Shown here one piece after another: positions 7,156 through 53,412 of a stretch of DNA of 64,000 nt. Both the position numbers and the translations under genes were made by a program. Source of the stretch: Polytrichum commune (Eukaryota; Streptophyta; Polytrichopsida; Polytrichales; Polytrichaceae); contig OX485805.1 in NCBI GenBank assembly GCA_950295325.1, forward strand, positions 8,804,501 to 8,868,500, read 5' to 3'. Under the pieces are notes generated by a model, which was given only the letters and a program-made list of their open reading frames with translations, was not told the origin of the DNA and did no database searches. Numbering within the stretch: position 1 is the first letter of the stretch; every line of letters starts with the position of its first letter.

Positions 7156-8985
7156 TAAAGGGTTTATGGCTGATAATGCTCAAGCTAATTAGAATGCGGT
7201 GAGGACGATTTACGAGGATGGTGACCCAAGTCTACCCATGGTTGCACATGAGTGTACATGTCTTTTCCATTGGTCTGTGAGCTTGAATAAGGTGACCCAA
7301 AAGTATATCAAACCATCATTGCAATTTCAATACAAGCAAATATGCAAGGATTACAATGACGCAAAAACGATGGACAACGCCAAGTCTAAGTATCATGTGA
7401 TTCGTTCTTAGTGGTTGTCATTCGGAGTTGCTTCGGAAGAAGGCATCTTTGGCCTTTCAGAGTGGTTGGATTTTTGGCACTTTCATTACAGACAATGGGG
7501 TGGTCATATGCTATTTGTAAGTACGTATCAAAATTTATTATTTAATATCATTCATTTTTTCCCATTGTTATATATATCTTATATTTTTCTTATCCTCATA
7601 TTTGTGTGTTGTTCATAGGATATGACAATAGAACAACGTGCGGAAATGCCAACATGCGACCTTGCAGACACTGTACACAACAAATGGCTCTAACAATCCG
7701 GCGACAAAATGATTTGTTTATATGAAGCTATAGTGGACGATATGATCCGTGCCTTCATGGAAATTACAATTTACCGGACATGGTTGAAAAGGGGGCCTGA
7801 TGGTAAAGGTCGTGATTTGGCATCATTGAAACTCAAAGTGACTGCCAGGTGTGAAGATCCAAAAATGTTGGTTAATGCCATGAAGTCTTATCCAGGGGCA
7901 GAAGACGTCAACACTAGAAATTGTGCATTGGAAGGATCAAAGCTCTTTGGTTCCACCAAATGCAAATTCAACCTACCACCGGGTGCTGATTGTGACTCTC
8001 ATCGACCCGACAAAGTGAACTATTTCATTCCTCGTCCCAACACCCAAGCAACTCGTCAACGCATAGAGGAATTGTTGAGTTCTGCAATTCATGGTATGGC
8101 TCATACTACATCCATGTTAGAGACTGATTGTCTTGCTTCTAAATGGCACATTGCAAGATTGCCACCCAACTCAGCCAAACGATGTTGGACACTACAGGCC
8201 ATTACAGGGACTATGTGCAATGCCAAAGTCGGGACTGGAAAACATGACACATTTTGCTCCAACATACAAAGGGCTCAGGAAGGAATTTCGTTCTCCCAAC
8301 AATGTGGAGTATAAATTTTGGTTTTGCCTTGACGATATCAAGTATTGTATGAGTGGCAGTAAAAAGAAATATGTGTTGGATTGGCCTATTGTACCTAACA
8401 CGTGGCCAGTGAAGATAAGTACCAATCTATCGAGAGAGGAGGTTTTGGCATTTGAAGATATTGGATTTCAACTACAGCAGAGGGAGGCATTGTCCCCTCG
8501 TCGTAGGCTTTCAACAATCGCAACTTTCCCCATTCTTCGCTCGCATTTTTGTATGCCACCAAACCCGGATGCCCACCCTACATTCAGGTTTGGGAAGACA
8601 ATGCGTCATAATCCAACAGCACAGCTGGCGGATCACAAAAACAAATGGGAGAGAGCCGAACTTATGGAAGGTTACTATGTGGTTGGGGTCACTGCCATTC
8701 CATATCCAGGCTTTGGAGTGATAATCAATATTGTCTCCAAATAGAATATCATCTACCATGTCACAATTGGCGGCATCCGGCATTGCACATGCTCGGATTT
8801 TACGAAAATGTCCTCTCATGCATTGGGAAAGAAAAGAAAATGGGTGTATTGTAAACATCTTTATTATGTGTTGAGGTTTTTGTAGAAGGTGGATTACGAG
8901 AGTGACAAGTTCATTCATGCACCTACATATATCTATAATGAGGTCATGCGACTACTTGAGCTAGATGGTATTGTAGAATGTAAGT
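7156..8985 (+). pseudogene. MULE transposase remnant with SWIM zinc finger
   Basis: The reading begins mid-protein (KGFMADNAQAN, where the Asp would be catalytic in MULE DDE domains) and passes through WHFHYRQWGGHM. A 102-bp intron has good sites (GTAAGT at 7517, AG at 7618) and joins in phase as MLF|DMTIEQR. Then follow VHNKWL, LPPGADCDSHRPDKVN and YKFWFCLDDIKYC, ending in a SWIM-type zinc finger at about 8780-8870 (CTC...CKH). Disruptions: TAG at 7190-7192 and 7409-7411 where Trp fits, TAA at 7691-7693 where Gln fits, a frameshift near 8245 and TAG at 8742-8744. The N-terminal part is missing. A homologous C-terminal copy lies at 53.4-54.1 kb. Not functional as it stands. Confidence 0.7.
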
Positions 8986-12783: not shown

Positions 12784-13481
12784 CCCGGGTACGCAACTCC
12801 CGTATTATATGGACCTGATTATAATCACTTATAATGCGTTTTAGTCCAATATTGAGTGATACAATTTGTTTTAATGTATGAAACCCTTGTAGCCCTTCTA
12901 ACAAGGAATCCAAAAATGTAATTATATATAGGAAATGAATATATTTTGAAGCATATAATTGCATTAAAAACCTAATTATATGATTTTTTTAATACATGTA
13001 CCATAGGTCAAACTACCCAACTTTTTGGACTTTTTAATAAGATTTTAACATTGTGAATGACTTATAATTTTAATGGGAGGCAACTATTCGTGGCTTATAA
13101 TTCTAATTGGAGGCAAATATTCGTGTGGATTTTTTTAAATTATGTATAGGCAACTTACTGGTCTAACGGTTGGGATAGAAAACTAATGATTTGTGTTAGG
13201 ATACAATTGAGGTATGTATTTTTAAGACCATATACATCATATGGTGCCCCGACTACTCAAGGGTATCATGGGATATTTCAAAATATCATGGGTTCTCGGT
13301 TTCTCGGGGGGGGGGGGGGGCACTCCCTTGTATATTTTGCATACACCTGCGATAATGACCTATTAAAATGGGGGCTATTTACCTATGAGAAAGGATTATA
13401 AGGGATGCTAATTTTTGAAATAATGGTAAATTGTTGTGATTATTTGCACCCTAAACACTATATTCGTTATTTGGAGACTTT

Positions 13482-13787
13482 TTGTTAATTTTGAGACTAT
13501 TTAAGGACGTGGCTTTCACATTTATAGGAATGAAAACACTACAAATATGCTATGTTCCCAATATGGAAACAAATATGAAACTCAAATGCATGTAATTACA
13601 CATATAAAAATAGGGAAATGGGACAATTACAACATTTGCATATAGGAAATCGATATCATATTCATTGAAGAGGGTCAAAATACAAAATGCAAGTGGAATA
13701 TCCACTATTAGGCCAAAGCCCTAGAAACACAAATCCACATCTATATGTATTTTAATATAGCCTATACATTTGGACCATGAATAGGCG
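13482..13787. other. Left subterminal region of E1
   Basis: AT-rich, no frame. 3' flank of the minus-strand gene. Confidence 0.4.
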
Positions 13788-14659
13788 TCACTCTTTTGTT
13801 TTTGAAATACTATTATTAGCCTTTGCGGCCGTTTCTTTTTCTTTTGCTTTCATGGTGTCCATGGCTCTAAATATCTCGGCTCCGCGACTGTAACCTTGTT
13901 TATTCCCATTCCCAGCCCTCGAATATATGCCATTTTCCCATATTGGCCGACCCCCTACCGAATAAGTGGAATACGAACGTGTTTGGGAAACCGAACGTCT
14001 TGCACTCTTTCGTAGGGCCAAACAACGATCAGACTCGCAAGTCGCAGTCTTCCGTGTTCGCCTATCCAATGACGGAGTGGAGGATGCACGTCCCACATCC
14101 ATGTATATTGGGGTCTGAAACAATGACCATAAATATATATAACGACGTGGGTTAGTATAAGTTACGGATGTAAGTCCGAAAAACCCAAGAATTTGAAATG
14201 CACTAAATTAATATGCGGACATCATGAACGAAAAACTTGAGAATGCCAATAGTGGGGCACCTTGGCCTTCGGGGCGGCGGTTTGATCTTCAGGGACATCG
14301 AGGGGAGTAGACACAAGCACAACCGGGACGTTCGTAAAGGCCAGGACATCAATGTGGGGTTCATCCATGCAAAGACGCCTGGTCGACCGCGGGTTTCGAA
14401 CGTGCTTCTCATTGCGGAGGGGAGATGGGGATGGGGGTAGAGCGTAATTGAGCTTTGCAACCTTTGGAGGAGGGCTATCGACAACTCCGTCTTCGAACCC
14501 CGAGTCTTTGGAGTAATCCACGGCAGAGGCGGCATCGACGGCCGAAAATTGAAATAGTGAAGGCATTGAAACGTCGGTCACACCAATGGAAGGGGAGCTG
14601 GGGCCCGGCTGAGATGTAGACATGCCATGTCCGAGACTTTGGGATGCTTGGTGAGGCAA
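13788..14659 (-). CDS. E1 minus-strand gene, last two exons (basic tail)
   Basis: Exon 14659-14237 begins after TGCCTTAG|TTG and encodes a Ser/Pro-rich segment (GHGMSTSQPGPSSPSIG, VDSPPPKVAKL). A weak GTTTTTCG donor at 14236 keeps phase 0. The last exon 14114-13788 follows GTTTCAG|ACC and is basic (LDRRTRKTATCESDR, MKAKEKETAAKANN), ending at a stop at 13788. Both continue the frame of the phosphatase exon. The region looks disordered, with several Lys/Arg clusters that could serve nuclear import. No enzyme motif. The 14236 donor is the least certain splice site of the gene. Confidence 0.45.
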
Positions 14660-14758
14660 CTAAGGCACAAAAATACATTTACAAAATAAGGAGAGAAATG
14701 TTAGATATAAACATGGAGAGTCCAAATACGGAGCCAAAAAGTATCAAAGTTCTCATAC

Positions 14759-15520
14759 CAATTTATTGAGTTCAGCAAAGCCGTACAACCTCCTAAATTC
14801 TGTATCTCTTGGGCCTAGAGGTCTATTGCCAATACGATTTGAGAGGACAAAATCCGGGACACTTCCGGAGTGATGGGCAAGCCTTCTAATGTAGGGTCCT
14901 AATTCTAACTCTAGGAAGTTGTCGTTTCTATCGCCCTCCCAAGGGTTCGGGAAAATGCAGTTGCCCGGGGGGTTGAGAACGCTCTTCGCCGGGCTGTCGT
15001 CAATGAGGAGCGTGTTCTCCGGAGTGGGCCAATAACCTTGGGGGACCCCCTCCAACATTGGGACGCCCACCCAGAGGTTCTTCCTCAGCACCTTAAGGAA
15101 TTGAGGTCCGCGGCCTCCTCCGACCTTGGGTACAATGTTGCCACTACGGTCATAAAGGTCATCGCAGTGTTCTTGACCGAGAAGCAAGCACGGCATTGCG
15201 AGTTCTCGGAAAAGGAAACTGACGACGGCCTTCGTGTTGTCCATCAGCATGGAGCTCCAGATGATGACATGGGCCAAGCCGAGGACCTCACGAAGGAAGC
15301 ACCTCAAGCCGGGCCGGACGCGCACAACCTTCTTGTTAATTAGTGTATCGAAGCGCCCGCCGTAATCCATGTCTTGTGGAGTACGGTAGGGACCCTTGGA
15401 CGCACTATTGGAGATATGTGTGGATTGACAAAGCACGCCATTGAGGTCAAATATTATGAAGTTTTTCCTCATAATATGGCTTGGTCTTTCGGCGGGGTTG
15501 CGACATATCTCCGACGGACC
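14759..15520 (-). CDS. FCP1/SCP-like HAD phosphatase domain (E1 cargo)
   Basis: The exon starts after CATCACAG|GGT and ends before GTATGA; both splice words are good. It encodes FIIFDLNGVLCQ, the HAD motif I in the DLNG form seen in plant NLI-interacting-factor-like proteins, where the second Asp is Asn. Then come VRPGLRCFLREVLG, the WSSM motif II region (HVIIWSSMLMDN), a helical cap-less stretch and the acidic motif IV (TLLIDDSPAKS). The 254 codons are uninterrupted. Family members dephosphorylate Ser/Thr of proteins such as the RNA polymerase II tail. Asn at the general acid/base position may reduce activity. It joins in phase 0 to the exon at 17235-15866, so it may be the C-terminal part of one large protein rather than a gene of its own. 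Confidence 0.7.
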
Positions 15521-15865
15521 CTGTGATGGCACATACTACCTAGGTGAATGGCACTACCCAGGAAAACCAAATGACAAGCATGCAAAAATGCAACAAAGAA
15601 ATGCGAGGCAACAAGTATCCGAAGAACTATCCAGTTCAAAAAATTGTATTAATGTGTTTGGTGATATACATTTCGCGAATAATTTACATTGTCACTAAAG
15701 GTCTCTCCTAAGATTAATTGAGCCTACACTAGCAAAATTGGATCCGCCGCCGCGGGCGAAGTCGAGATTCGAACTCGAAAATATGCACACGCCACGAAAG
15801 CTGGCTGACTGGGAACTTACGGACGCGCGTCCGTAAAGAGGGAGGCATGCTCAAAGGTTGATTAC
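15521..15865 (-). other. Intron with palindrome and SINE-like B box
   Basis: Begins GTAATC (15865) and ends CATCACAG. It holds one perfect palindrome at 15817-15836 and, at about 15766-15785 on the minus strand, GAGTTCGAATCTCG, a pol III B-box-like word that suggests a SINE fragment. Confidence 0.5.
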
Positions 15866-17235
15866 CTCTTCAACGGTGAGTTCCTCGCCGGCAGTGCCTC
15901 CCTCACCAGGCCCAATTGCGGGGCCAGGTTCCGGACGCGCGTCCGTAAATTCGCCCTGCGTGTCTTCCACCACCAACAAATCGGCTCCACCTGCTTGCGA
16001 CGCTTGCGTGCCGACGAAAGGTTGATCCTCATGCGAGGAGTCTTGGCCCCCCCCCGCATATGTACATCTTCATCGGCGAGGGGGGCGTCGCCCATGTTGA
16101 CATCTTCATCGTCTCCTATGGCGGGAGGGGAGGGCTCTGGAGCGGTAGCAACCTGGGGAGGGGGCGGGACAACCAACGCGGGGGCCGTATAGGTGTGCTC
16201 CGGTATGTACAACGTGTGGCTGCTAGAAGGAGGGCGCACCAGAACGGGGGGCACGGACATGGCGGGCTTGGGCGCTGCATACACCACCTGGGGTCTTGCC
16301 TGCAAGCTTGCCATCATGCTCATGAATTGTTGATTTTGAGCCATGAGGTCGGCGTGCCTCCGAGCAGACTCCAACCTAGCTTGCTCCATCTCAGCTTGGA
16401 TGGCGGCCATCTTCCTGGCGTGCTCTTCGTTGGCCTCCCGGAGCCGCATGTCAAGCTCTTCCTTCATCCTCTTCTCCATCTTCTCGTCCAGCTCGGAGAC
16501 GGACATGGGCTCTTTCTTCACCTTGCCTGGCTCAGAAGGCAAGGCGGAGATGGAAGCGTACAGCCTCACCTCATCCTCGTCTTCATCTGAGAGTTCCAAG
16601 ACGGCGCCTTCGGGGTATTCGTTGTAAGGCGTCTTGTTCCTCTGCCGCCGGCTTGCACGGTAGGAGTCGATATCGGGCCTCGATATCAACTCTAGCATAT
16701 CTCTACCTTCCATGGGCGGGAGCGCCGCCTGCTCACTGGGCTCTCCCCCACCAGAGGACGCCGTGCATCCGGTTTCTGCAGCAAGGTCCGCATCCCTCTC
16801 CGCCATAAGCCTTGCAGCACGAGATGGCCCCGCAGTGGAAGGAAGCCCAACTCGAGAAGTGGGAGTCCCAAAGGGTGATAGACTAGGCGTATTATGAGGC
16901 ACCCGAATTGGAGTGACGTTGGGCTGCGCCTCCTCTGCATCCATGTCGTCTTCACTCAGGAGATACGCCACGCGATACACTGGATGACGAGCAAGACCGC
17001 GCAAGTCTTCCTACCTGGAGGGCTGTCCCCTTGGAGACATTGGATCATCGTCTCCATCGCTGCCCCACCCGCCTGCATGAGAAGGCTCCTCTCTAGAGGC
17101 AAGAGGAACAACAGGATGTGGGGTAATGATATCCAAGAAGTCATTGAGATCCATTTTCTCTGCAAGCTTCTTGTGATCTTTGCACTCATCCATGTCGCCA
17201 GCCCCCACAAACGAGTTAACCTGCAACCCAAGCAT
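15866..17235 (-). pseudogene. E1 minus-strand gene, coiled-coil exon (disrupted)
   Basis: The exon follows TTGGTGCAG|ATG at 17235 and encodes an N-terminal MLGLQVNSFVGAGDMDE region, then acidic and Pro/Ser-rich sequence. A Glu/Arg/Met-rich coiled coil covers about 16560-16300 (KMEKRMKEELDMRLREANE). A TAG at 17011-17013 interrupts an otherwise open frame (Gln fits). A run of nine C at 16047-16055 (G9 in the sense strand) shifts the frame. One more G restores an acidic continuation (QDSSHEDQPF, LLVVEDTQGEF, TAGEELTVEE) up to the GTAATC donor at 15865, and the exon length (1370, one short of a multiple of three) agrees. One palindrome (15919-15939) lies inside the coding part. Confidence 0.55.
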
Positions 17236-17506
17236 CTGCACCAAATAAAAAAAGTTAGTGGATTGTTGGTATCAAGATTGAATTGACGGGGAAGATGGAC
17301 ATACAAACATGATGCAGTGTGCATTTTACGGACGTGCGTCCGTAAAATGCACACTGGGTTAGGTTTGATAACTTTACGCCGCGCGGCCATAAATATGCAC
17401 TACAGCGCGGCCGCAAAGTTGAAATGAACTAGGTGGTTAAACTTTACGGTCGTGCGGCCGTAAAGTTGCATCAGGTGGAGGCATGAAAGTTTTTTTAAGT
17501 ACTTAC
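17236..17506 (-). other. Intron with palindromes and diverged relatives
   Basis: Starts GTAAGT at 17506 and ends GGTGCAG. It holds a 38-nt inverted repeat at 17317-17354 and diverged relatives at about 17371-17392 and 17440-17466, where GGACG has become GGCCG-like. Confidence 0.65.
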
Positions 17507-19172
17507 CAATGCCGCATAAACAAATTTGGTCCCCCCGAAGACGTTGTACACTGTCTCACTCATCACAGTCACAGCCTTCAATACTCCTGTGTAAAAGTCC
17601 ATTCGGAGCTCGGTTGCCGGGCAGATTGCGAACATCGCCTCGTCCATTAGCTCCTTGGGGTGTGGAGGCGGCAACTGGTAAATTTTCTTGAACACGCTCT
17701 TCGCCTTTACAGGCAAACGCCCACTTGGCGAAGACTTCCGTATCAAGAAATAGAGACATATAGCGCCGACCTGCTTTACCCCCCTTGCTTCTTCGATGAC
17801 GGCGATGCCTTCCGTCTTCGCGGGGACGTATGTGTTGTGGAAGATATTGTATTCGAGATCCATCGTCGAGTTGTATAGGTCGACGACCGCTGCGGATCTC
17901 TCTTGGTCCACAATCCACAGCCACACGTTTGGCTCCAGAAGTGCAGGGGACCGAAAGCTCTTGAAAGCTTTCAGGAAGCTGTCGTAGAAAGGGGTCCCCG
18001 GAGGAGGTTGTTTCCAAGAATTTGGAAATGCACGGAAATCAAAGATAGCAAAAGGACAACCCCGGGGGTCATCTCTCACAGTGGCCCGCGAAGCATGGGT
18101 GTCCCACTTGCCGAACTTGAATTGTGATGTCACAGCGCAAAACCTCGCGACACCCTCGAATTTGGCATTCTTCTTTCTATCGAGGAAGTGTTTATACAAA
18201 GTTGTCTCCCTTTCGTTGATAGAACCTTTCTTCTCGTTCTTCCTTGAGCGCTGGGCCAAAAACGGAGATGCTGCTCTTATCAATGCCTTCATTGAGACGC
18301 CATTGATGTGGTATACTATTTTCAATCCCCTCCAGTTGTCCCACACAATGTCACCATCTGCATCTGTAAGGTTGTAGGCGGGTACCAATTTGCCTATCTT
18401 CCTCATAGCCAATGTCTTCTTCTTCCTGTATTCGCACCATTCCTTAATATGGTACGTTGAAGGCTTCATAAACCTTGGTCGTTTGAGGAAGATTTTTGGA
18501 TACGGCGCTGTCCTTCTCGGAGTCTCCTTAAGAAGGTGTTATGTCGCCTTGTAAAGCTCGGCATCAAGCAACCCTTGGAGGGGACAGAAGAACTCTCTGA
18601 GGATTGGAGGCACCTTAATCTTCAGGTCCTCTTTGTACTTCTTCTCCGTCTCAAGGTTGATGAGTTCTCCGTTGCTGTGTGCATGGAAGACGCGCATCCA
18701 GATAGCCCAGGTCCTACCCGACGAAGTGATGAGCTTCAGTTCGCCCTTCAGATCTTGCCATGTCTTCATGCCGCTTTGCTTCATGTCAATGCTTGAGAAC
18801 TTCGTCACAATCGCACTGCTGAATGCCTGCAAGTAGAGAAACAAATGAGTTGTTGAAATGAGATCAAAAAATGGAATGAGAACCGTCTAGTTTACGGACG
18901 CGCGTCCGTAAACTTGGAGCACACAAAGAATAAAGGGAAAGTTTACGGACGCGCGTCCGTAAACTTGGAGCACAAAAAGAGTGAAGGAGAATTTACGGAC
19001 GTGCGTCCGTAAATTCATTTGGGAATATTACCTGCCATTTGGGATTCTTGACGACTGCGTTGTCCCTCTCTTTTGGTGGACAGCCGTGCTCCTCCCACAA
19101 GGACCTTGTGAGCCCAAAATTGATGTCCACATTGGTTGTTAACACTTGTAAAACATTACAAGTGGTGTTTTG
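17507..19172 (-). pseudogene. E1 minus-strand gene, central exons of unknown function
   Basis: A short exon ends at 19032 (NPKWQ|GTAATA). An intron with three palindromes (19031-18827) follows, then exon 18826-17507 (440 codons, phase 0, TTGCAG|GCA to TTG|GTAAGT). A TAA at 18539-18541 (Gln fits) is the only break; the frame stays open on both sides. Visible features are a basic stretch near EWCEYRKKKTLAMRK, then a well-conserved-looking globular part with CPFAIFDFRAFPNSW, NVWLWIVDQERSAAVVDLY and VGAICLYFLIRKS, suggesting alternating beta strands and helices. I cannot assign a family. No catalytic motif is evident. The 5' edge of the first exon is not resolved. Confidence 0.5.
18891..19013. 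repeat. Three E1 palindromes in one intron
   Basis: Copies at 18891-18912, 18942-18963 and 18992-19013, spaced 51 and 50 bp. The third has TG for CG at the centre. Confidence 0.9.
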
Positions 19173-20206
19173 GTGATTTATGATTATTCACAAAAATATA
19201 AAAATAGTGAAACTTGAAGAAAACTTAGTTTGAATCATTAGGCTTTTGTGGAGTGGATTTAAGTAGGAGAAGGACAAACCTTGGTAAAGTGTGGTAGGTA
19301 GAAAGCCAAGGTTAGTTAAATATTTGAATTAGGATCCTTGTTGATCATTTGAGGGAGGAAGGCTTAGGAGATAGGATAAGAGCCTACAAAGTAGGAGGAA
19401 ATCTTGAGGGTTTATCGTGAGCCTTGAGGGTGCTCACCCCCTCAAACTCACTATATAATCCCTCATTCTTCCCTTACTCATCCTCTCTTTCCTTCGTGCT
19501 CCTTGGCACTCCACGTGTTATAAGTGTGGGTGCGTGGGAAGCAAGATAGGAGCACGTGTGTGTATGGATGTAAGGTTAGGAGCCAAGGCTAGTTGGCCTT
19601 GAAGAGGGTTTGACCTCTTGTTAGTAATAGTTGGGCGTGAATAATTTAAAATTCAATTTATGGCTTTGTTTGAATACTTGGATTTACATTGATTAGCCTT
19701 ATACTTATGCGGATGTGCAAAGTCTCTTATTGGAGCATTTAGTTTTGTTGGACTTCATATGAATTTTTGAGAGCCAAAAAACCGAGACTATGTCCAAACT
19801 TCCAAAAACTAGTGAAAAAGTGTAGATTTAAAGGGAACAGCGTAGAATTGCGACCATATACTTTGTGGCAATAGAAATATTATTGCATATTCATGTAGAG
19901 GACTTCATTACCTATCCATGGATACCAAGAACTCATTTTTTGGACTTCATATGAATTTTTGAGAGCCAAAAAACCGAGACTATGTCCAAACTTCCAAAAA
20001 CTAGTGAAAAAATGTAGGTTCAAAGGGAACAGCGTAGAATTACGACCATATACTTTGTGGCAGTAGAAATATTATTGCATATTAATGTAGAGGACTTCAT
20101 TACCTATCCATGGATACCAAGAACTCATTTTTTGGACTTCATATGAATTTTTGAGAGCCAAAAAACCGAGACTATGTCCAAACTTCCAAACTTCCAAACT
20201 TTGAGA
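19173..20206. mobile_element. Probable LTR-type insertion with 191-bp tandem repeat
   Basis: The likely left edge (19137) is TGTTAACACTTG, LTR-like, next to an inverted pair CACTTGTAA/TTACAAGTG (19143-19164). TATATAA near 19450 is followed by a pyrimidine-rich start region, as in LTR promoters. From 19748 to 20190 a unit of about 191 bp is repeated 2.4 times ('GGACTTCATATGAATTTTTG' at about 19749, 19940 and 20133). No target duplication or primer-binding site found. It separates the exon with the ParB-like domain from the next one, so either it is intronic or it broke the gene. Confidence 0.4.
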
Positions 20207-21592
20207 TTAAAGAGTGTAAGAAGACATAGTATAGACTTGGCTAAGTTGCGTATATTCCAACGATAGATTGGAATCATACATTGTGTTACAAAGAGAGAAA
20301 TCTCTACATGTCATTATAAACTTCTCCATTCGGGCTAGGACGAAATTGAAGGGTGGAGGCTTTTTGGTGACAGTCCTACCAGCCACGATGTTGGCTGCCC
20401 ATGACGCCTCAAACGCTTTGATTTTGTTTGTCTGGTTGAGGAAGGCAGATATGACGATGAGCTGATTGGAGTCCTCTGAATGCACGAGAAGTGCCTTCCA
20501 ATATCGGATTGTGGGTTTCAGAGGGCTCTTCCAATTATCGTCTGCGAGGAGAGTTTTTTCCGCTTCCACGCTATGCTGGCCGTCCACGATGTAGAATTTC
20601 CCTTGCTTAATAATTGGCCAATGTTCTGGTGTGACCTCCACGATTGGATCCTTTGGGGTCATACATATGGTCTGCCGGTCAGCTTTCGGGTTGTTCATGA
20701 TGTTGTTCATCTGCCACCAGACCCTGCTGTCTTCTTGCACCCGAGTATTCATACTCTCGGTGCCCTGGTGGCATTTATAAACATCCACGTCAAATGTGAA
20801 ATACCTGCCCATTGGCCAGCAGGCTTTCGTTTTTTCGTCGAACTCTTGTTGAATTTTTGTTGATAGATCAGAGTTCGGGCGTTCTCCTTTCTTCAGAGGT
20901 GGTGCGACAGTAAGGGTGGAGCTGACATCTGGACCTTCGGTAAGTCCAAATGACTCCATCTGTGAATGGGAGCGTTTACTGGATGGTCTGCTCCCTCTCG
21001 ATGCTTCACTTTGGGACGGTCTTGATCCTTCCGGGACTGTCTATGGAACACGCGGTTGTCGTTCAGAAACGACTTTCTTCTTCATTTTCCCCTTTCTGGA
21101 CTCCAGGACTGCTCCATTCACTCTCGTGACATTGTTGAGGAGTCTTCCAAGCCGCTTACCCGTCCAAGGTGCATTGCATGCATAGTCTTGGAATTCAGTT
21201 GCTAGATTGAAGCAACCCGCATCCGGGCTGCCATTTTCGCATTCAGCCTTGTGGAATGGATGTTTGTGCTCATGAAGAAGAATTGTGACTCTATCATCTT
21301 GTTTTTCAAGATCTATGACGACATAGTCACCTTGGGCCACTGCACACTCTACTGACCAATTTTTAATTCTAACCCATTTATCTACATCTATATCTTTGGT
21401 ATTCATTTGATACCCAAATCTAAGTACGAATGTGTCATTCTCAAGTTTCTCTACGTAAACTGTCCAGTTGTCTACTGTGTCTTCGACCGGCTTGTAGTGA
21501 TCGTTGTGGCTTATATCTTTGATGGCGGGTGGAAGTGGAGGCGGAAGAAACTCAAATGTCTGGTCAATTGCAGGTCTTTTTGTAGATGCCAT
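20207..21592 (-). pseudogene. ParB-like domain exon of the E1 minus-strand gene
   Basis: Start: ATG at 21592 directly after TTTGCAG, so a 5' non-coding exon probably lies upstream; the frame upstream of this ATG runs through a palindrome and is not coding. The product begins MASTKRPAIDQTFEFLPPPL. A mid part has alternating strands (NWTVYVEKLENDTFVLRFGY) and a basic KGKMKKKV cluster. In-frame TAG at 21041-21043 (Gln fits), then open again to 20207. Residues near 20600-20530 read GKFYIVDGQHSVEAEKTLL, followed by YWKALLVHSEDS and ISAFLNQTNK: the order strand, DG(Q/N)H, helix, strand, N-x-x-N-helix is that of ParB/Srx-like domains. DNA or nucleotide binding is therefore plausible; nuclease activity cannot be judged. 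The neighbouring palindromes make a site-specific DNA-binding role attractive, as inference. Confidence 0.55.
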
Positions 21593-21637
21593 CTGCAAAT
21601 GCAAAAAACAATGCTTAGCATCATGATCAATGTCAAG

Positions 21638-22267
21638 TTTACGGACGCACGTCCGTAAACTTTCCACAGGTTGTTTTGAATTATAATGTCAGAATGAACT
21701 ATCCGAAAAGATTTTGCATATGTCAATACGAAATTTCACATGTAGTTTACGGACGCGCGTCCGTAAACTATCAACGGGTAGTTGGGGATGAGAATCTCAA
21801 CTATGAACAAAGATAAGATTTAATAAGATAGTTCTAGTTTACGAACGCACGTCCTTAAACTAGTAGTTGGGTTTACGGGGTTAGCACTAATTTACGGACG
21901 TGCGTCCGGAAACTAGGAATGGGGTTTACTTGGATGTCACTAGTTTACGGACGCGCGTCCGTAAACTAGGAATGGGGTTTACTCGGATGTCACTAGTTTA
22001 CGGACGCGCGTCCGTAAACTAGGAATGGGGTTTCCTCGGATGTCACTAGTTTACGGACGCGCGTCCATAAACTAGGAGTGGGGTTTACTTGGATGTCACT
22101 AGTTTACGGACGCGCGTCCGTAAACTAGGAAAATATACTGTCCATTAGTAATAATATTGTTTTTTAAATATATCCAGAACTTACGGACGCGCGTCCATAA
22201 GTTCTGGATATATGTTGCATGCTTCACCCACCTGGTGCGTCAAAGTTTACGGACGCGCGTCCGTAAA
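21638..22267. repeat. Ten E1 palindromes upstream of the ParB-like exon
   Basis: Copies at 21638, 21746, 21838, 21891, 21944, 21997, 22050, 22103, 22180 and 22246. Five of them (21891 to 22103) are in a tandem unit of exactly 53 bp with a shared spacer (ACTAGGAATGGGGTTTAC). The one at 22180 sits in a 46-nt inverted repeat (22168-22213). They immediately precede the first coding exon of the minus-strand gene. Confidence 0.95.
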
Positions 22268-23437
22268 CTTCAAGCCCTACATTGGTTAATCTGGTCCTTG
22301 TTGAGAGGGTTCCGGATTTTCAGGAAGGTGGTTTTGTATATGATGCAAAATACAAGCAAACCAGCAAAGAACAAAAAAAACCAAGCAATCAAACAATCAA
22401 ACCAGCAAGTAAAAAAGCAAGAAATAAACTAAAACACAATCAAACAAGCAATCTATGTACTTATGCAAGAGGCCAGCAAGTAAACAAACAACCACGCCAG
22501 CAAGCAAAGCAAAGCCAAGCAGCAAGCACAAGCAAATCAAACAACTGTAAGCAAGCAAGCACACAAGCAAAAGAGAGAAAAAGCAATCACAAGCAAGCAC
22601 ATAAACAAAAGATTAAAAAACAATCACAAGTAAGCACAAGCAAGCACAACCAACTAGCAAGCACAAACAATGACACAAGCAGCAGGCAATCAAACAATTA
22701 AACAAGCAAGTCAAAGCAAGAAATTAACTAAAACACAATCAAACAAGCAACCTATGTCATTATGCAAGAGGCCAGCAATCAAACAAGCAACCAAGCCAGC
22801 ACAACAAAACACAAGGAAGCACAACCAGCAAGCACAAGCAATGCAAAGCAAAGCAAATCAAATCAGCAAAGCAAAGTAAAGCACAAGCCAAGAAAGCACA
22901 AGCAAAGCAAAGCAAAAGCAAAAGCAAAGCAAAGCACAAGCACAAAGCAAAGCAAAGCAAACCAGCAAGCACAAGAACAAACACAAACACAAACAACAAA
23001 CAACCTTGTGAGGTGACCAGGAGCGCCAACAGCAAGAGGAGCAACGCCACCAGCAAGAGGAGCGTGGAGAGGAGAGGAGCGCCAATAGCAAGAGGAGAGC
23101 AAGAGGAGAGCAAGAGGAACGCCAACAGCAAGAGGAGAGGAGCGCGGAGAGAAGCGCCAACAACAAGAGGAACGCGGGGAGGAGAGGGTTTAGGGTGACA
23201 ACAACAAACCCTAGAGAAGCAAGAGAGGAGCGTGAGAAGAATGTGAGGAAGGAGAGCGAGAGAGGGGAGGCGGAGAAATGAGAGGGTGAAAATGGGCGAA
23301 TGAAACCCTAAAACCCTTAAGTACTCAAGAGGAGCCCCCCAAACGCCCTGACTCCCAACGTCCCATCCACCCCGCACCCCATCGCCACGTGGCAGAACCC
23401 TATAGGTTCATATTGGAGAGGTATGTGGCACACCTCT
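22268..23437. repeat. AGCAA-type and GA-rich low-complexity tract
   Basis: 22330-23010 is built of AAGCA/AGCAA/CAAGC words with almost no T on the + strand. 23010-23300 is AGAGG/GCGCCAACAGC rich. Long frames here on both strands (Leu/Cys-rich on -, Lys/Gln/Ser-rich on +) are composition artefacts. It lies between the two divergent E1 genes. Confidence 0.8.
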
Positions 23438-23693
23438 CCCTCTTTAGTAAGACACGTTTGGAAATCACAAAAAATGTCGTATTATCGACAAGTTGTCTTC
23501 TCGTTAATATGACAAACGCTGTAAAATTGTCGTACTATTGAGCGAATAAAAAAACAAAAGAAATATGAGCTTCAAAACACACACAACGGATGTAAGCAAT
23601 TATTATATATATTGTATGAAATAATAACGTATAACTTCAAACAAATACAAGCGTTCTCAATAATTATTGAAATAAGAGTCCAGTGATCTGAGT

Positions 23694-23891
23694 CTAGTGT
23701 TGCCTACCTAAGTGAAACAAGTTGTCTGATAAAAAATTAGACAACAATGATGCATAACGTTGACGCTTTAATATTGTACGTGAAAAAACATCATCCAAAT
23801 GAACCAAATGCAAATTAACATTAAAATCAAAGCCTTCTGCAATATTGATTCCCAAAATGGCATCCACCAACTCAACAACCATTATACACAC
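23694..23891 (-). pseudogene. Fragment related to the frame at 57891-58208
   Basis: 65 codons. ELVDAILGINIAEGFDFNVN and YASLLSNFLSDNLFHLG align with VVDAPLGTNYAQGFDLNID and HASLLCKFLVDNSLYFG in the larger copy at 57.9 kb. That copy resembles the C-terminus of pogo/jerky-type DDE transposases. Truncated on both sides. Confidence 0.5.
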
Positions 23892-23944
23892 TTCTTGCTC
23901 AATATCATATGCATATAAGTATTAGTTGACATGTCACCATCATC

Positions 23945-24200
23945 CAGTCGTAACATCCAATTACACTAAATATCACTAACCCTATGAAAGTAAGGTACTT
24001 TTAACTGTGAACTCAAACACTAAATTTCAACTATTAATGGTAATAAGTGGAAGTGACATATAATGTGTACCATTAACTATATGATCAAAATCTAACAATG
24101 ACAAAAGGAGAAGGGACATGGTAGTAACATAGCATGTAAGATACAAATTGTAAAAACATAGCACCAGTGACAATTGGGTTCTGCACCTTGTACTCGAATA
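23945..24200. repeat. MITE-like repeat, second copy
   Basis: Reverse complement of 1650-1910; see there. Ends ACACTAAATATCACTAACCC. Confidence 0.6.
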
Positions 24201-25113
24201 TAGTCTTTGTTTAAAATAATCTCTTGAAACCCTTATTTTCATTAAATAGTGGCAGGCTCTTGGTCTGAAACCTAAATATCACCCTTATTTCATTTTTTCC
24301 ATGTCGACATAAATATTTATATATTTCACATTTTCATTCGTAGGTTTATTTGGGAATTGTTGTTCTGCCAACCGACTATGGTGCTAACCCAACTCACACC
24401 ATATTACTTCATAACTCCACATGATAGATTGTTTGATATTAGTCCTTCAATGTAGCATCATATTTATGACAAAGCCTAACTAACATAAGGTGAAGATGCA
24501 TGACCTGGAGTCATATTAGTCACCTTTCATTTATTAATACCCTAACCAAACCCATTCTACAATACAAATCCTAATGTTTATTAAGTTCACAATGATAAGC
24601 CTAGGGAAGTTTTCGGTATTGAAACTATAGGACAATATGAGGTTGAGTAACTCAAGTGTAACATTTTTTTGTGGAGTTGTTGCAATATGAAGGTAAGTGG
24701 ACTTTAAATGACTAGTACACTAACTATCGCTTATTATTACGAATTATGATATGCTACAACTATTTATTGTATGATAGTATATCATTGTCCACAATTAAAT
24801 TACATCAATTAAAAAAATTTAAAGATTAAGCATTTTGTAAATACAAACATCGACATATGCCACTCTTTGGACTCCTCTATCAAGAGTCTTTGAAAATATT
24901 TGTATTTGTTTGGAGTTATTAGCTCTTATTTCATATCATCTATATTGCCTATTAAACTTGTTGTATATATATCTTTGCGCTCATTTTTATTATGATAATT
25001 TCGTATTCCCTCAATAATATGACAACTTTACGCCACTTGTCATATGAATGAGAAGACGACACCTAGATAACATGACCTTTTTGTGTTTCTCACACTTGTC
25101 ATACTAAAGAGGG

Positions 25114-27125
25114 TGAACAATAATGACATTCATGTTCGGTTTGGATGAATTTGCATGTTAATCTCTTTAATTCTTGGAGGACATAACTCTCGTCCGTCAC
25201 TGGAGGTCATCCTAAGCCGGTATCAATAACATAACCTCGAAGTGCGAGGCTTGGAAGAAATTTCACCATATTTTGAGAAGAACGACATAATACTATGGGT
25301 TGAGGGTTTAGGGTTTAAGGGGTTTAGCATGAATGCAAGTCTAGAACCTAGGGTGAGCATTCAACTATCCTACTTCTTGTAATCATGAGGCCAAATTGCT
25401 TGCCTCTCATTTGAGAGTTTTAATGATAAAATGAGGTAGTGGGGGATGTCAATCCAACTACACTCTTTGGAATCTTGTGTCAAGAGTTCTTGAAAATGTT
25501 TGTATTTGTTTGGAGTTATAAGCTCTTATTTCATACCATCTAATAGGGTTGAAGTCATATGCCTCTGATATTATCTTGCACAACATTACGAATTAATTCA
25601 ATCCCTTTGAACATAGGTCTAGTAAGCTTGTATTAAAAGTGCACGCAAGGGTATATATTGAATTTACATCCCTCTTGTACATTAAACAACCATCGGGATT
25701 CATTGAATCCTTCCACGAGCTTGTATATCACCTACATCAAGTAGTAGCAAACTGTTTTTTATTCTAGAGTTTTGTTTCCATGGTGACATGGATTGATGTG
25801 TTAAGTACTTCATTAAAGAATACCAATTAATATATAAGATCTTCAAAACCTTTCATAAAAAATATATGTTAAGAGCAAATGGCTAAAGCCGGCTTGGAAC
25901 ATAAATATTATAACGATCTTCAATGTTTTGAAGCCTTAATTGTTTTCATATTTGTATCCCTTCATTTCATTTTAAACTTGGGGTTACATCAAAGGATAAC
26001 AAGTCCCGGCTAAATCTTTTACTTGCATGTAAGGGGTACATTTCATCCAAAAAAAGTAAGATTCAAAAAAATGAAAGTTAGGGTTACACAACCCAAGTTT
26101 TATGGCTCTCATTAAAGGATACCAAATGAAGATTTTGTACATGGCAATTAGAATTGTTATTGATAGTTTCATGAATATTTGTTCAATGTCATATACTTTT
26201 TCACCACTTACTCCATCTTGCAAAATAATTGGTGTTGTTCAATAACTAAGAATGTTTGCAACCAAACCCTAAACCCTACCTAGGTCCATAGATGTTCTAC
26301 TTTCATGGCCTCACGGAAATCAAAGTTTCTGTATGTATTAATAATATTATGTGTAGGTGGGGAAATTAAAAGGGTTGGATGGTAGGGTGGTGGCCGATTG
26401 TATTACAATATTAAATGCAAGATGAGATGAGAGAACATGATATTCTAATATCATAAGATTGTATGCAAAACAATTAAATAGTTGCTAGATTATTTCCGAA
26501 ACACATATATTTTTATAGTCCATGGACTACAAATGTTGTTGTGGTGGTTGATTTTTTATACGATTCTATAATTTTTTGTCCACAAATTCTACAATGAACT
26601 CTTAATATTGGGTACTCCAATAATATAAACCCCCCCTCAACAATGTTTATTGCTCATATAATATTAACCAACTTGCTTTGTTGTACAGCATAAATATATA
26701 GATGCCTTTGGCTTTGTCATTATGTGGAGTCATGGTCAAATGCATGTTGGCCGCCATGAATACACATTCCATTGCAAGGCTGACATTCTCCATGTTGGAA
26801 TATTAGGTTTTTGTTTTTAGGAAAGAGTTGGCGGCTAGTATCCTATGCTGAAGAAAGGATCCAAGGGAAGACGACGAGTACTTAAAGGAAATCCCCCCAC
26901 CAAGGGACTCTTTTTGCATCTCAGATGTGGGTTGCGCTCTTGAGACCCTTGTAGTGTGGTGGATACTTGTTTCGCGCAGGTATAGATCCTATTGCAATGA
27001 ACCTATTATACCCTAAACCCATATTCGATTTGCACTATCTGGATCTCTGAATGCGATAGATTCTATTTCTGACAGATATTGTTCACGCTTCAAGTGTCCT
27101 ATTATGACGCCGCAAATTACGGAAC
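25114..27125. other. Non-coding interior of E1
   Basis: AT-rich DNA without convincing frames. 25440-25560 repeats, in the same orientation, part of the nested element's right subterminal sequence (CTCTTTGGA...CAAGAGT...TTGTTTGGAGTTA), so a partial duplicate of that element lies here. 26770-27000 is less AT-rich and may be the transposase gene's 5' region. Confidence 0.4.
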
Positions 27126-27863
27126 TTTACGGACGCGCGTCCGTAAACATTACATCTCTTGACTTATTTGCTTATTGAATATCTCATATCTTATTGAATC
27201 TCTCAGTGGCTCGTTGCATCATTGAGTATCTCAATCTATTTTCATTGGCTCATTGAGCATTTACAAGTAGGTTTACGGACGCGCGTCCGTAAACATGCAT
27301 CCTTTTGGTGTCACATGGTGGTATGTCATCTACAATGTGGGTTGTGAATTATTATCTGTTTTGATAGTATGCATATTTGTTCTGATGAATATTTACGGAC
27401 GCGCGTCCGTAAATCTTGAACCTTTTGCATCTGTTCTAGTAATGAGGTAAAGGTAGGTTTTCGGACGCGCGTCCGTAAACATACAAACCTCTTGCATCTG
27501 TTCTAGTAATGAGGTAAAGGTAGTTTTACGGATGCGCGTCCGTAAACATACAAACCTCTTGCATCTGTTTAGTAATGAGGTAAAGGTATGTTTACGGACG
27601 CGCGTCCGTAAACAGACAAACCGTTGGTACACATTCAAATATATTACTGATAAGGCCAGGAGGTAAAATTTAGTGTAAATATAAATGGGGCTGGGACTTA
27701 TTGGTTCCTTGCAACCCTATTTGTTTTGGACACAATTGTCATTTGACATAGGGATGTTTACGGACGGGCGTCCGTAAACATACATTGTCTAATTTGCCAA
27801 GACGTTTGCGCCTAACCCTGACATCTCTTATCAGATAATGATTTGCGGACGGGCGTCCGTAAA
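27126..27863. repeat. Eight E1 palindromes upstream of the transposase gene
   Basis: Copies at 27126, 27272, 27392, 27458, 27525, 27591, 27757 and 27842. Three (27458-27612) are in a 66-67 bp tandem unit with 'CAAACCTCTTGCATCTGTT'. The last two have GG for CG in the centre. The final copy ends about 54 bp before the ATG of the transposase gene, so the group occupies its promoter or 5' leader. Confidence 0.95.
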
Positions 27864-27916
27864 CATACACTGCTTATATTTTATCTCATTCTTCATTTGG
27901 CTCTCTTGTAGTGGCC

Positions 27917-30900
27917 ATGGATTCCGACGTCGGTGATAGTGCGTCCGATTTCTCCTCGGAACCGTCAAGCTATGCTAGCGAGTTTGAAGATGTCGTGGAA
28001 CAGGAAGCTACAAATGGTGTGGCCGATGCAGATGATGAAATCATACCACCATGTGAGGGTTATTCGCGGGAGCAGTGGGTTGATCTTGATGTTGTACTAC
28101 TCAATGCATGTGCCGTTCCCGTGGCCAACGGTGTTTGTAGGAACTCGAATCCAACGGATTGTATTGATGCAAAACCCCTCGGGGAGGACGATGTTGGGGT
28201 GTGCATATTGAACTCCTTACTTCCATCGGAAGTGCCTCCTGGTTGGAGGTTCTCTCTCCGTCGATGGCCTTTGCGAAGTGTTCATCACGATGGTGTGAGC
28301 TTGTGGGATCAATCCCGCCGATTTGAGCAACTGCAACAGTCTTTGTTCGCCACAATGCGTCCAGACAAGGTCGTCGTAAATATGATTCCGTTCGTGTGCC
28401 TCGTGAACCCACGCAGCGTCGTCGAGATCATACATTGGGAGACACATCTATTAGGTCCGTAGCCACAAAGGATTGTTGTGCGAAGAAGTGCTGCCAACTA
28501 TTTCCCCGTGGCAAAATCAAATCTTTGAGGCAAGAGATGTGGCTTGCCGACTTTCGTATGCGGTCTGCCAAGAAACTTGAAGTACATCGCAACATGCACT
28601 TGGATGCCGGAGGTTGTAAGGTTGTGACCTTGGAAAATATAGAAGTTTGTTGCCGGGCATGGTACATTATTCATGCCGTTTCAAAGGCAGATTTTTATAG
28701 GTTCCGGAACTACTCGCTGCAAGGAAGGCGTTCTTGGTTTCATGGCAACTCAGGTACAAAGAAGCCCAGGGAGACAACACTCCAAGCGGCTGCAACTCTG
28801 TCAACCATCATTATGCCATTAGCGGATGCGATGCCACACAAGACACGCACTTTGCCATCGGGGGAAAAGGTTGTTCAGATGGTTTTACCCACAGGGACAA
28901 AATGGAAGAACATACTCGTGGATGTTAATGAAGTTGGTGAAAATGTTGGATGTGGGCCGATTTCATTGTCAAAATTGAGTGTGATCAAGAATCAACAGTT
29001 CGCTGAATACATTACGAAGAGACCCGGGGATAAGTTTGCTAGGTGTTCTACTTGTGAAAAATATAAAGGCCTTCGAGACGCACATCCAATAGGGACCGAG
29101 TCGCACACCAGACATCAACAGAAATGCATTGAGCATGTCAACAACCAGGAGGCACACCGTCAAGACTACTACAAGAATCGCGCCTTATCGATAATGAGGC
29201 CGAACGAGGTGTTGACAATCATTCATGACAAAATGGACCATGCGAAGATCGCTTATCCTTGTTATGCGCGGAAAATAAAGGCCACAGATGGATATTTCAA
29301 GCTGCCAATATCTGTCACAGGTTCGTTGGTTTTCATTTTTTTGGCGTGCCCACATACTCATTTTTAAGAGTTACGGATGCGCATCCGTAACTCGTCTGTG
29401 CATGGTTGTTCCTTACTTGCGGCAATATCATATTTCCTTCATATATATGATATTGGAATGTATTTCTCATTTGTATGTCTTAATTCAGGTATGATTGCAC
29501 ATGGCCATGTGGACGTCAAGTATGCACATTATGGCTTGGATTTCTATCCAGGCGACGCCAATCATACCGTAGGGTCTTTTACAAAACTTCTACGAGATCT
29601 TGAGAGTCCGCCAACATCATCCTCGCGTGCTCTTTTTGTTGGATGTGGAACAACTCCGATTTATGAGGCTGTGCTAGAGGGGAAGGAAGTTTGTCTATCT
29701 TCACTTCAAGAACCGCCTGAACAAGCCGTTCTTGCTAAACCTTTGCCTCGAACTCTACACATGCAACTTGACAATTGTGCCAAAGATAACAAATGTCGAT
29801 ACGTGTTTTGTTTTTGGTCATTGCTGGTAGCCAAGGGCATTTTCAAAGAAGTGTTTGTATCTTTTTTGATGGTTGGCCACACGCACGATGACATCGACGC
29901 TTCATTTGGACGTTGGAGTATGAAGTTGCACGAGGAGGATTTTCCGACAATTCCTCTTCTCATGAAATCATATATGGATTTGGACAATGTGCCAGTCATT
30001 CCACATTTGATTGAAGAAGTGCCCGATTTCAAACGGTTTATAAAACCATTCATTCTTAAAGGGTCTGACCGACTAGTGGGCCACACCAAGGCTCAACAAT
30101 TCCGATTTTATATGCGTGACGATGGTCTGCCCGCCATGCAATTCAAAATTTTGTGCACTTCCCCGAATTGGGGTCCGGAGGAAGGGATACTCATTTGGCG
30201 CAAAAACGAAGATGGCAAATGTGTGCTATCTGATGGTGAGCCGAAGCCTTGCACACCCAGCCCCATGAGGAATGGGCTAGAAATCATCAAAGGTATATCC
30301 GGATTCATTGAGTATTGGAAAGAATTGTGCGAGGAAGGCATCACAAGACGTGTTAGGGATACCCACGAACCATTGATTGCGTATTGGGATCGCATTCGCA
30401 CGGCATTGATAGCACCCGATGTTGATACACATTCATGTTTGACACAAGGGTTTTGGCCACAAAGTCGAGTGACAGTCGTGGAATCTGAGGCCATGTTGTT
30501 CAACAATGGGGACGTTCGTGAAGAGTTCGCTGCGGACGATCATTATGTTGGCCCTGCTCGCAATTGACCGGAGCCGTCGTTTCGTGTTGGGGTTGATTGC
30601 CACGAAGGTTATTTGTTGCTCGTACGTGCTGGGGATGAGGAGCATCCCAAGCCAATTTGGTTGGTGAAAGCATTGTCATCACCAAACTTTGTTCCAACTA
30701 GTCCAAATTTTCGCCAAATTGAGGTGGAATATTGCCGTCCAAGCACCAAAGATCAAAATGTGCTCCGGACATATTTAGGGTGGGACACCAAAAAAGGTTT
30801 CAAATGGACAATGGACTCATCATACGAACCGGTTTGGATAAACACAGATACCATACTTTGTGCTTGGAAACCACGCAAAGGTTCGAAATCAGAGACAATG

Positions 30901-31017
30901 ACCATCCCGCAAAAACATATAGATTTTGCCAAAGACAACTTGGCACGTATTGCAGCTGCGGAAAACGATCTTGAAAATGGAAATGAAGTTGAAGATGAAG
31001 ATGAAGAGGGGGAATGA
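27917..31017 (+). pseudogene. DUF7869-type DDE-like protein, putative E1 transposase
   Basis: Start: ATG at 27917 in a good context (GCCATGG). The acidic N-terminus is followed by a frame change near 28330-28400, then CCAKKCCQLFPRGKIKSLR, a Cys-rich probable zinc site. Next come IIHDKMDHAK (first acidic residue), an intron 29323-29488 with sites CAG|GTTCG and TTCAG|GT that holds a palindrome, then LDNCAKDNKCRYVF and VGHTHDDIDASFGRW, the conserved core of DUF7869 proteins. The three acidic motifs and their spacing look like an RNase H-type DDE catalytic domain. TGA at 30565-30567 (Arg fits) is followed by a further 150 open codons with an acidic tail. Two lesions make this copy inactive unless they are sequencing errors. 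Confidence 0.7.
29368..29393. repeat. E1 palindrome in the transposase intron
   Basis: GAGTTACGGATG and its exact inverse. The variant uses GGATG for GGACG. Confidence 0.9.
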
Positions 31018-31624
31018 TATTGACGTACGTCGGGACCAAAGTTAGTTGAAATGTGTATTTGTTTGTCATTAATATATGACATTGGGGTTGAATATTATAT
31101 TAGACACATTTTATAGATTACAACTAGTATAATATTATTGCATGACTGTATTGATTTACGGATGTGGAATCACCCTTCCCATGCGCTATCAAATGTTTTC
31201 TAGTATATGTTTATATTTACGGATGTGGAATCCAAACTATTTAATATTGCATATTATGTTAATTTGTAAATTCTAATTAACATTGTCAATTTATTTTAAG
31301 TATTGTTGCAATTGGGATGTGCCATTCAATTCAACCACAATAGGCCAAGAGCTTTATGTTTCGGATGCGATTCCAAGAGTCAATACATATAAAATTAGAT
31401 GGCTATTTATGGATTCATTACTTTTGTTCAACACAATCCCAAAAAAACAAATAATCGTGTAATTGTGTGATTTGATTCTCATCCCCATACTTACTATATT
31501 TAGTAATATATAGTTCCATCGCATATGGATTTCTAAAACATTATGATGTAATTGTTCCCGATGTTCCCTACGTTCACAATATTCGCATCCGAAACTATGG
31601 GTCCAATTTATTTTGAGACTTTCC
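31018..31624. other. Right subterminal region of E1
   Basis: Half-site copies of the palindrome arm: TTTACGGATGTGGAATC at 31155 and 31215, TTCGGATGCGATTCC near 31359, and an inverse GCATCCGAAAC near 31585. Subterminal half-sites are usual transposase-binding positions. No gene. Confidence 0.55.
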
Positions 31625-31656
31625 AAAGTCTCCAAATAACGAATATAGTGTTCCTA

Positions 31657-49335: not shown

Positions 49336-49965
49336 ATTTTATAATTATACATAACCCCCAGAAAATGAATTCCTCATCTTATTGTAGGATGAAGTCTTTT
49401 TACAAAAATCATCAAATTATAATTTGATTAATGACCAAAAACATTGATCTAAATGTACCCATATTTATAAAAAAAAAATATTTATAGCCAATACAATTAT
49501 AATATGGTCGTATTTTCATTGAAATCTATGCGTTTGCAATAATTTGTTCATGTGCACTTTTACATATTGAATTGCACTTTTAACGAAACCGGTGTTTATA
49601 GAGAAGCAATATACCGGGCTTCTTACATTGACTCTTAGATGATGTTGGTCATTTTTCGCCATATCAAGTTGTATTGTGTTCGTCATTGTGTTGTTGTTGC
49701 TCCCACTCTTTGATGTGATGTTATTCACTTCTTCCCCTTTCTCAAAATCCCTTTGATGTTTTGGCTTTTTGTTGCAGGTATATATGATCCATGGACTGCA
49801 AGGACGTTCCAAAAAATCATTAGGGTGGTAAGTTTTATAAATATTACTTTAATAGATATGAAATTAAATCAAAATTAGAGCAGATTTGAAATTTGGTTTC
49901 TAAATTGAATGGAATGTAGCAAATTTAAATTTGACTTGATATAAAATATTTATAAAAATATTGTT
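49336..49965. other. Right end of E2 and flank
   Basis: AT-rich; E2 TIR at 49573-49596; no gene. Confidence 0.4.
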
Positions 49966-53254: not shown

Positions 53255-53412
53255 AAAATCTATACATTCCATGGAAATAGGTCACATTTTTACTATTTTT
53301 GAAAGAATCTATAATATTCTGATTTAAAACAATATTTCTAAATTTAGTTTGGGAAGTTTACTATTTTTATTTCCTCTCTGCTCTCCGCTCTTCGCTCACC
53401 GTTCACATAGGA
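53255..53412. repeat. Transposon-end sequence, direct copy at 55215-55368
   Basis: 'ATACATTCCATGGAAATA' and 'GAAGTTTACTATTTTTA', then CTCTCCGCTCTTCGCTCACC and 'CACATAGGA', recur in order at 55215-55368 plus 56793-56812 (the second copy is split by the element at 55369-56792). The CGCTCACC words link both to the MULE ends at 2.0 and 9.9 kb. Confidence 0.6.

Follow-up and report, generated by a model that had tools for sequence, protein, structure and literature searches.

The brown alga Ectocarpus has a 21.5-kb Sola-1 transposon, Sola1-1_Ec32, in which a gene opposite the transposase encodes a protein of 1104 residues with ParB-like and methyltransferase parts. In the accessible text of that report, the authors propose that this protein binds and epigenetically marks its own element, and they cite similar ParB-methyltransferase proteins for green and red algal transposons (PMC12477816). 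The VANC proteins of Arabidopsis VANDAL elements, as far as the available text describes them, bind short motifs located upstream and in introns; tandem repeats multiply these motifs, which differ between families together with the protein (PMC5735166). We analyzed a 64-kb stretch of the Polytrichum commune genome (contig OX485805.1, positions 8,804,501 to 8,868,500; here the window) that contains a transposon, E1, with a ParB-methyltransferase-like accessory gene and a palindrome family of its own. The overall anatomy of E1 is ordinary for a giant transposon; the accessory gene is uncommon and of a recently noticed kind. A first-pass annotation that knew of no such plant element had overstated the novelty of this gene, since the available text on the brown-algal Sola-1 element already describes one opposite a transposase (PMC12477816). 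The association of such a gene with lineage-specific palindromes appears to be new and is strongly supported by sequence comparison.

E1 is bounded by terminal inverted repeats (TIRs) that are complementary at 28/28 positions and flanked at both ends by a 4-bp target duplication, CCTA, just as first annotated (Table 1). The plus strand carries a DUF7869 transposase-like gene with a PF25273 (DUF7869) match in 29368-30564 (E = 8.8e-40), and the three acidic motifs noticed earlier in its protein, HDKMDH, QxDN, and GHTHDDID, recur in relatives. The accessory gene lies opposite, on the minus strand, and its ParB-like and methyltransferase-like exons are successive in our gene model, with conventional splice sites. 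The first is predicted to encode a ParB-N fold domain: a ParB/Noc-like fold was predicted for relative P0003 (best chain 15% identical), and the unrelated fold that had been named beforehand as contrary evidence did not appear. I[IV]DGQH is present in 26/35 relatives and IIGGQH in 1/35, and the stretch is missing in 8/35. The second exon is predicted to encode an amino-methyltransferase-like fold, a beta-class fold having been predicted for relative P0036. It has DFRxxP where motif IV is expected and NVFGGTK where motif I is expected; regular expressions (regexes) matched D[FWY]R in 53/68 relatives and the motif I-like [NS][VI]xxG[ST]K in 43/68, and D-F-R is near-invariant (at least 90%) in alignment A2.

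Sequence searches named neither accessory exon. Pfam, NCBIfam, and PHROGs gave no family name, the below-confidence matches being DUF6551 (13/26 rows, best E = 0.012) and ParB-like PHROGs (E = 0.03 and 0.09). A PDB sequence search gave no match for the DGQH open reading frame (ORF) at E ≤ 10 or for alignment A1 at E ≤ 1, and two weak matches for alignment A2 (E = 0.28 and 0.63). Relatives of the two exons include three pairs on contigs of equal length (3747, 4856, and 5380), which are probably the same contigs, and both domains may belong to one joint protein. The minus-strand exon series of the first annotation needed amendment. The gene starts at MASTKRP (21592), about 330 codons ahead of the GKFYIVDGQH first taken as its beginning; the DGQH exon is interrupted in this copy, an insert of about 1.27 kb lying ahead of its remainder at 19106-19032; and the stretch 17506-18832, then left unidentified, is the methyltransferase-like exon. 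The FCP1-like phosphatase sequence, first placed at the end of the series, was confirmed by PF03031 (E = 1.9e-13). The insertion holds 192-bp tandem repeats (19744-20190) and a stretch that also occurs in the otherwise unrelated database proteins P0032, P0034, and P0035.

The palindromes are confined to E1. About 24 had been counted between the TIRs and nowhere else; a scan for the 22-bp palindrome at ≤3/22 mismatches found 25, all within 15816-27863 and none in the rest of the window; 100 shuffles gave an expectation of 0.00. With up to 7 mismatches allowed, 28 were found, all within the element: 10 upstream of the minus-strand gene, 8 upstream of the plus-strand gene, and 10 in introns or between exons. 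Predicted coding sequence makes up 44% of E1 and holds 0/28 palindromes; these intervals come from a predicted gene model in which the ParB-like, methyltransferase-like, and DUF7869 exons were checked against relatives. Arrays at 53-bp and about 66-bp spacing contain palindromes.

Palindromes also stand beside the same exons in relatives. Because the database proteins were predicted without splicing, their sequences continue beyond the exon into translated intron. Behind the ...W[QK]V end of the ParB-like exon, 19/23 usable tails encode a palindrome, where shuffled tails would give 0.06 (of 35 proteins, 8 lacked this end and 4 had tails of <5 residues; a match in any of three frames was counted). 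After the ...YAA[LM]V end of the methyltransferase-like exon, the count was 25/42 against 0.045 expected (68 proteins, 26 unusable), and lead-ins upstream of this exon encoded a palindrome in 3/7 cases against 0.004 expected. Exon bodies gave a single palindrome match among 22,467 residues.

The half-site differs between the two protein clades. Among rows whose reading frame distinguishes GGAC from GAAC, 9 GGAC-type and 6 GAAC-type rows of the ParB-like tree (28 rows) separate with one change, and in the methyltransferase-like tree (68 rows), 6 GGAC-type and 11 GAAC-type rows do the same; the separating branches in both trees have 100% SH-aLRT support. For the first tree, 29/35 proteins were entered (P0031 was too short), and uninformative or mixed rows, such as P0057, were left unlabelled. 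The first-pass annotation had read E1 as bringing its own DNA-binding protein and binding sites, a ParB-parS-like module for partition, silencing escape, or transposition control. The predicted ParB-like fold and the private palindromes agree with the first part of that reading, and the linkage of palindromes with the gene, together with the clade-specific half-sites, favors an element-owned binding protein with its own sites; partition did not hold up, as set out below.

We lean slightly toward the explanation that the accessory protein recognizes the private palindrome as a self-address for anti-silencing or expression tuning. E1 would then be a cut-and-paste DNA transposon with a DUF7869 transposase-like protein and a 4-bp target duplication; its divergent accessory gene would supply two domains from successive exons, the first ParB-like and the second amino-methyltransferase-like. 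The encoded protein would most likely recognize the palindromes that stand in most introns and ahead of both genes, and the self-address would keep the element's promoters from silencing or tune their expression, as VANC does for VANDAL in anti-silencing and self-marking. The damaged copy in the window would depend on intact copies. The methyltransferase-like domain beside the ParB-like domain points to an epigenetic or chromatin role, and we infer binding, use of S-adenosylmethionine, and anti-silencing. A more specific version is tentative: the palindromes would be read by a ParB-like and catalytically altered methyltransferase-like protein that loads there and shields or marks only its own family, protein and palindrome changing together and sister families being mutually blind.

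Several observations weigh against the self-address explanation. No match was found in 17/42 methyltransferase-like and 4/23 ParB-like tails; the missed tails P0007, P0037, P0038, P0047, and P0082 read LRPRGRK or LRPRVRK, which would fit a CGGCCG-type palindrome outside the regex count, and the other misses show nothing. The tail regexes were composed after the first tails had been viewed. The match of clade and half-site comes down to a single split recorded by both linked genes, rather than to co-change on several occasions, which makes it a correlation. A DPPY-like motif was found in 0/68 relatives, fragments included, and methylation activity is doubtful for this reason. A regex for GERRxR, the CTP-binding box of partition ParB proteins, matches 1/35 relatives, many of which are fragments. 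Neither the ParB-like nor the methyltransferase-like exon was found by tblastn with four relatives on the 4.3 kb of CADCWO010000071.1 (L001), a contig with a related transposase gene and palindromes. Finally, the symmetry of the palindromes spreads past their core in a way that simple sequence recognition does not explain.

The CTP-box result also bears on the partition role first proposed. parS sites are palindromes near the ParB gene, and a ParB/Noc-like fold with palindromic sites near its gene resembles that arrangement. However, we give almost no credence to the idea that E1 has a genuine ParB-parS system for partition or for extrachromosomal maintenance: besides the near absence of the box, a Pfam scan of 11 element ORF stretches, which short exons could escape, gave no ParA-type match, a target duplication is present, and E1 sits among other transposon remnants.

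L001 is the sole DUF7869 locus confirmed in genome contigs (52% identity, 963-codon open frame). This contig is filed under an uncultured cyanobacterium genome and is probably eukaryotic contamination of the cyanobacterial assembly. Five copies of TTTAGCTCGAnTCGAGCTAAA (≤3 mismatches, against 0.00 expected) are spread over both sides of the DUF7869 gene on L001. This palindrome has no copy in the window; it and the window palindrome have common edges, TTTA...TAAA, and a different core. In other relatives' peptides, a search for the L001-type palindrome gave only SSSRA, which in 5 DUF7869 proteins belongs to the conserved coding frame and is not the palindrome. The exact window palindrome was not found in genome contigs or in viral contigs, and no relative was confirmed in the viral contigs with profiles A1, A2, and A3. 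Since no accessory exon was detected on L001, its palindromes could belong to the transposase. Palindromes that flank a DUF7869 gene, together with the four half-site-like repeats in the right subterminal region of E1, would suit DUF7869 transposase binding sites or transposition enhancer-like sites, the ParB-methyltransferase-like protein being an unrelated passenger. We consider this unlikely: the window sites are grouped in introns and ahead of genes, away from the ends; in many relatives, sites occur together with the ParB-like and methyltransferase-like exons; and the short length of L001 leaves room for an accessory gene beyond it. The stretch of E1 from the left end to 15315 holds no lone CGGAYG. 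The plus-gene intron is missing from L001 and from several distant relatives (P0111 and P0112 were compared), in which the frames are continuous; the intron and its palindrome may have arrived together.

Counting tandem copies as one group and excluding sites 14161 and 17372, we found positions 12, 13, and 14, beyond the 22-bp core, paired in 14, 13, and 12 of 18 site groups, against 0.254 by chance. The extended pairing uses mixed base pairs and no fixed bases. Palindromes 17325 and 22180 extend symmetrically 10 and 12 bp past the core, forming 42-46-bp inverted repeats with flanks unlike those of other copies. This symmetry could come from larger dimeric contacts that depend on shape, from hairpin extrusion, or from template-switch correction. 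Symmetry past a fixed core with changing bases is what structure-level selection would give, and site 29370 differs symmetrically on both arms. These features, with the positions upstream of both genes and in introns, would agree with host transcription factor sites or with RNA hairpins acting in splicing or RNA stability, the accessory protein having no role. This is improbable in our view. The clade-specific half-sites and the third palindrome on L001 are hard to explain by a host factor, although the relatives' hosts may differ, and a spacerless 22-bp palindrome would be a poor design for an RNA hairpin. We hold it more improbable still that the palindromes are functionless by-products of tandem duplication and template-switch correction of quasi-palindromes. 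Their position within spaced arrays and the symmetric extensions with site-specific flanks at 17325 and 22180 are of the kind such events leave, but the palindromes recur beside the same exons in many relatives, none lies in predicted coding sequence, and the core is kept while the flanks turn over.

Should the palindromes serve the accessory protein as its address, the suggestion made for giant algal transposons, self-binding and self-marking, becomes directly testable, because a candidate site can be named for two protein clades and a third palindrome stands beside a related transposase gene. The self-address explanation, if true, would also mean that the VANC strategy arose a second time, independently and from bacterial-type parts, and that programmable sequence-specific chromatin tools might be derived from it.

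The copy of E1 in the window is damaged. In-frame stops at 21041, 18539, and 17011 (minus strand) and 30565 (plus strand) break otherwise open frames. The frame is open at stop 21041 in relative P0001 (90% identical), at 18539 in P0036 (98%), and at 30565 in P0104 (94%); the comparison covers these three stops, no relative being available for 17011. The uninterrupted frames of the relatives led us to take the stops as decay, and an alternative genetic code or read-through of in-frame TAG/TAA/TGA was rejected on the same ground. Because the stops interrupt open frames, this copy is probably not autonomous and, if it is moved or maintained at all, intact family members probably do so. Some stretches of E1 have further matches in the window, at 57.9-60.2 kb and 1.7-1.9 kb; the 18 kb therefore include nested or repeated material.

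Table 1. Features of E1 in window coordinates
Feature	Position	Strand	Remarks
Transposon element E1	13454-31652		18.2 kb
Left TIR	13454-13481	+	28 bp; CCTA directly outside at 13450-13453
Degenerate palindrome	14161-14182	.	6 mismatches; between minus-strand ORFs
Additional ORF	14222-14659	-	without Pfam match
FCP1/NIF-like phosphatase ORF	14753-15535	-	PF03031 match at 14756-15535; shared gene with exons 1-3 only putative
Two palindromes past exon 3	15816-15949	.	intron by gene model
Accessory gene exon 3 (gene model)	15992-17235	-	stop 17011-17013; end inferred from CAG/GTGGAG donor; no relative compared
Intron 2	17236-17505	-	palindromes 17325, 17372 (degenerate), 17443
Accessory gene exon 2, beta-class amino-methyltransferase-like	17506-18832	-	in-frame stop 18539-18541
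Intron 1	18833-19031	-	three palindromes (18891, 18942, 18992)
Rest of ParB-like exon	19032-19106	-	ends at CAG/GTAATA donor
Nested insertion splitting ParB-like exon	19107-20371	.	approximate limits, about 1.27 kb
Accessory gene exon 1, PH-like N-terminal part and ParB/Srx-like domain (IVDGQH)	20372-21592	-	in-frame stop 21041-21043
Ten palindromes upstream of minus-strand gene	21638-22267	.	six at 53-bp spacing (21838-22103)
Eight palindromes upstream of plus-strand gene	27126-27863	.	
DUF7869 transposase-like gene, 5' part	27917-29320	+	frame change near 28327-28400 (splice or frameshift)
Plus-gene intron	29321-29489	+	one palindrome (29370, symmetric changes in both arms)
DUF7869 core exon	29490-31014	+	in-frame stop 30565-30567
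Four lone half-site-like CGGATG repeats	31159-31591	.	right subterminal region: 31159, 31220, 31362, 31586
Right TIR	31625-31652	-	28 bp, perfect; CCTA directly outside at 31653-31656

Between the two genes, 22350-23200 has low-complexity repeats, CAAG-rich and GAGGAGCGCCAACAGCAA-like. Elsewhere in the window, a PIF1-like helicase ORF (45977-47179, plus strand; PF05970, E = 4.5e-06) was read as a Helitron-like remnant, and a DDE_1 transposase remnant lies at 49953-50693 on the minus strand (PF03184, E = 3.2e-07); the ORF upstream of it (51099-51542, minus strand) has no PF03184 match. The plus-strand ORFs 8121-8741 and 53323-53886, without Pfam match, are alike by eye (FCLDDIKYCMSGSKKK and FCHDDIERCVKGSRRK) and probably represent another repeat family. 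No RNA families or tRNAs were reported within the window.

In the literature searched, with most subscription papers outside its scope, we found no mention of DUF7869 and no description of the E1 palindromes. The ParB/Noc N-terminal family differs from E1 in the CTP box, in the ParA match absent here, and in the eukaryotic transposon setting of E1. The beta-class amino-methyltransferases (M.BceJIV, RsrI, CcrM, MTA1, and N4CMT) have a fold like that predicted for exon 2, whereas none of the 68 relatives, fragments included, gave a DPPY-like match and 53 of them matched D[FWY]R. En/Spm (CACTA) elements encode TnpA and carry subterminal repeats, and their ends give 3-bp duplications. E1 resembles them in pairing a transposon-encoded, putatively DNA-binding protein with repeated sites and differs in its 4-bp duplication and in sites that are not mainly subterminal; CACTA lies 2 bp inside the TIR, and the triplets beside such ends differ (AAA and TTC).

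VANDALs are MULEs, with a different transposase, and VANC is not known to be a ParB or methyltransferase protein. VANDAL21 and E1 are alike in having an element-encoded protein, element-specific short motifs upstream and in introns, tandem repeats that multiply these motifs, and a motif that differs between families along with the protein; YAGTATTAY, the motif of VANC21, is shorter, and the string "palindrom" is absent from the available text of PMC5735166. MULE target duplications are given as 7-12 bp in the part of PMC10741241 that treats them, against 4 bp in E1. The same source, in its account of Sola transposons, gives a 4-bp target duplication, sizes of mostly 2-9 kb with some >15 kb, and TIRs of 11-1124 bp (PMC10741241), and E1 falls within these ranges in duplication (4 bp), size (18.2 kb), and TIR length (28 bp). 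Sola membership also calls for a DDD transposase homologous to those of Sola-1/2/3; the DUF7869 protein has three conserved acidic motifs. As far as its available text shows, Sola1-1_Ec32 is likewise a giant DNA transposon, and its opposite-strand accessory gene encodes ParB-like and DNA amino-methyltransferase domains, as is predicted for E1. Its methyltransferase is predicted there to make 4mC or 6mA, whereas in E1 no DPPY was found and its likely place is taken by DFR, and the word "palindrom-" does not occur in the paper (count 0; PMC12477816). E1 thus combines features of Sola1-1_Ec32 and of VANDAL/VANC.
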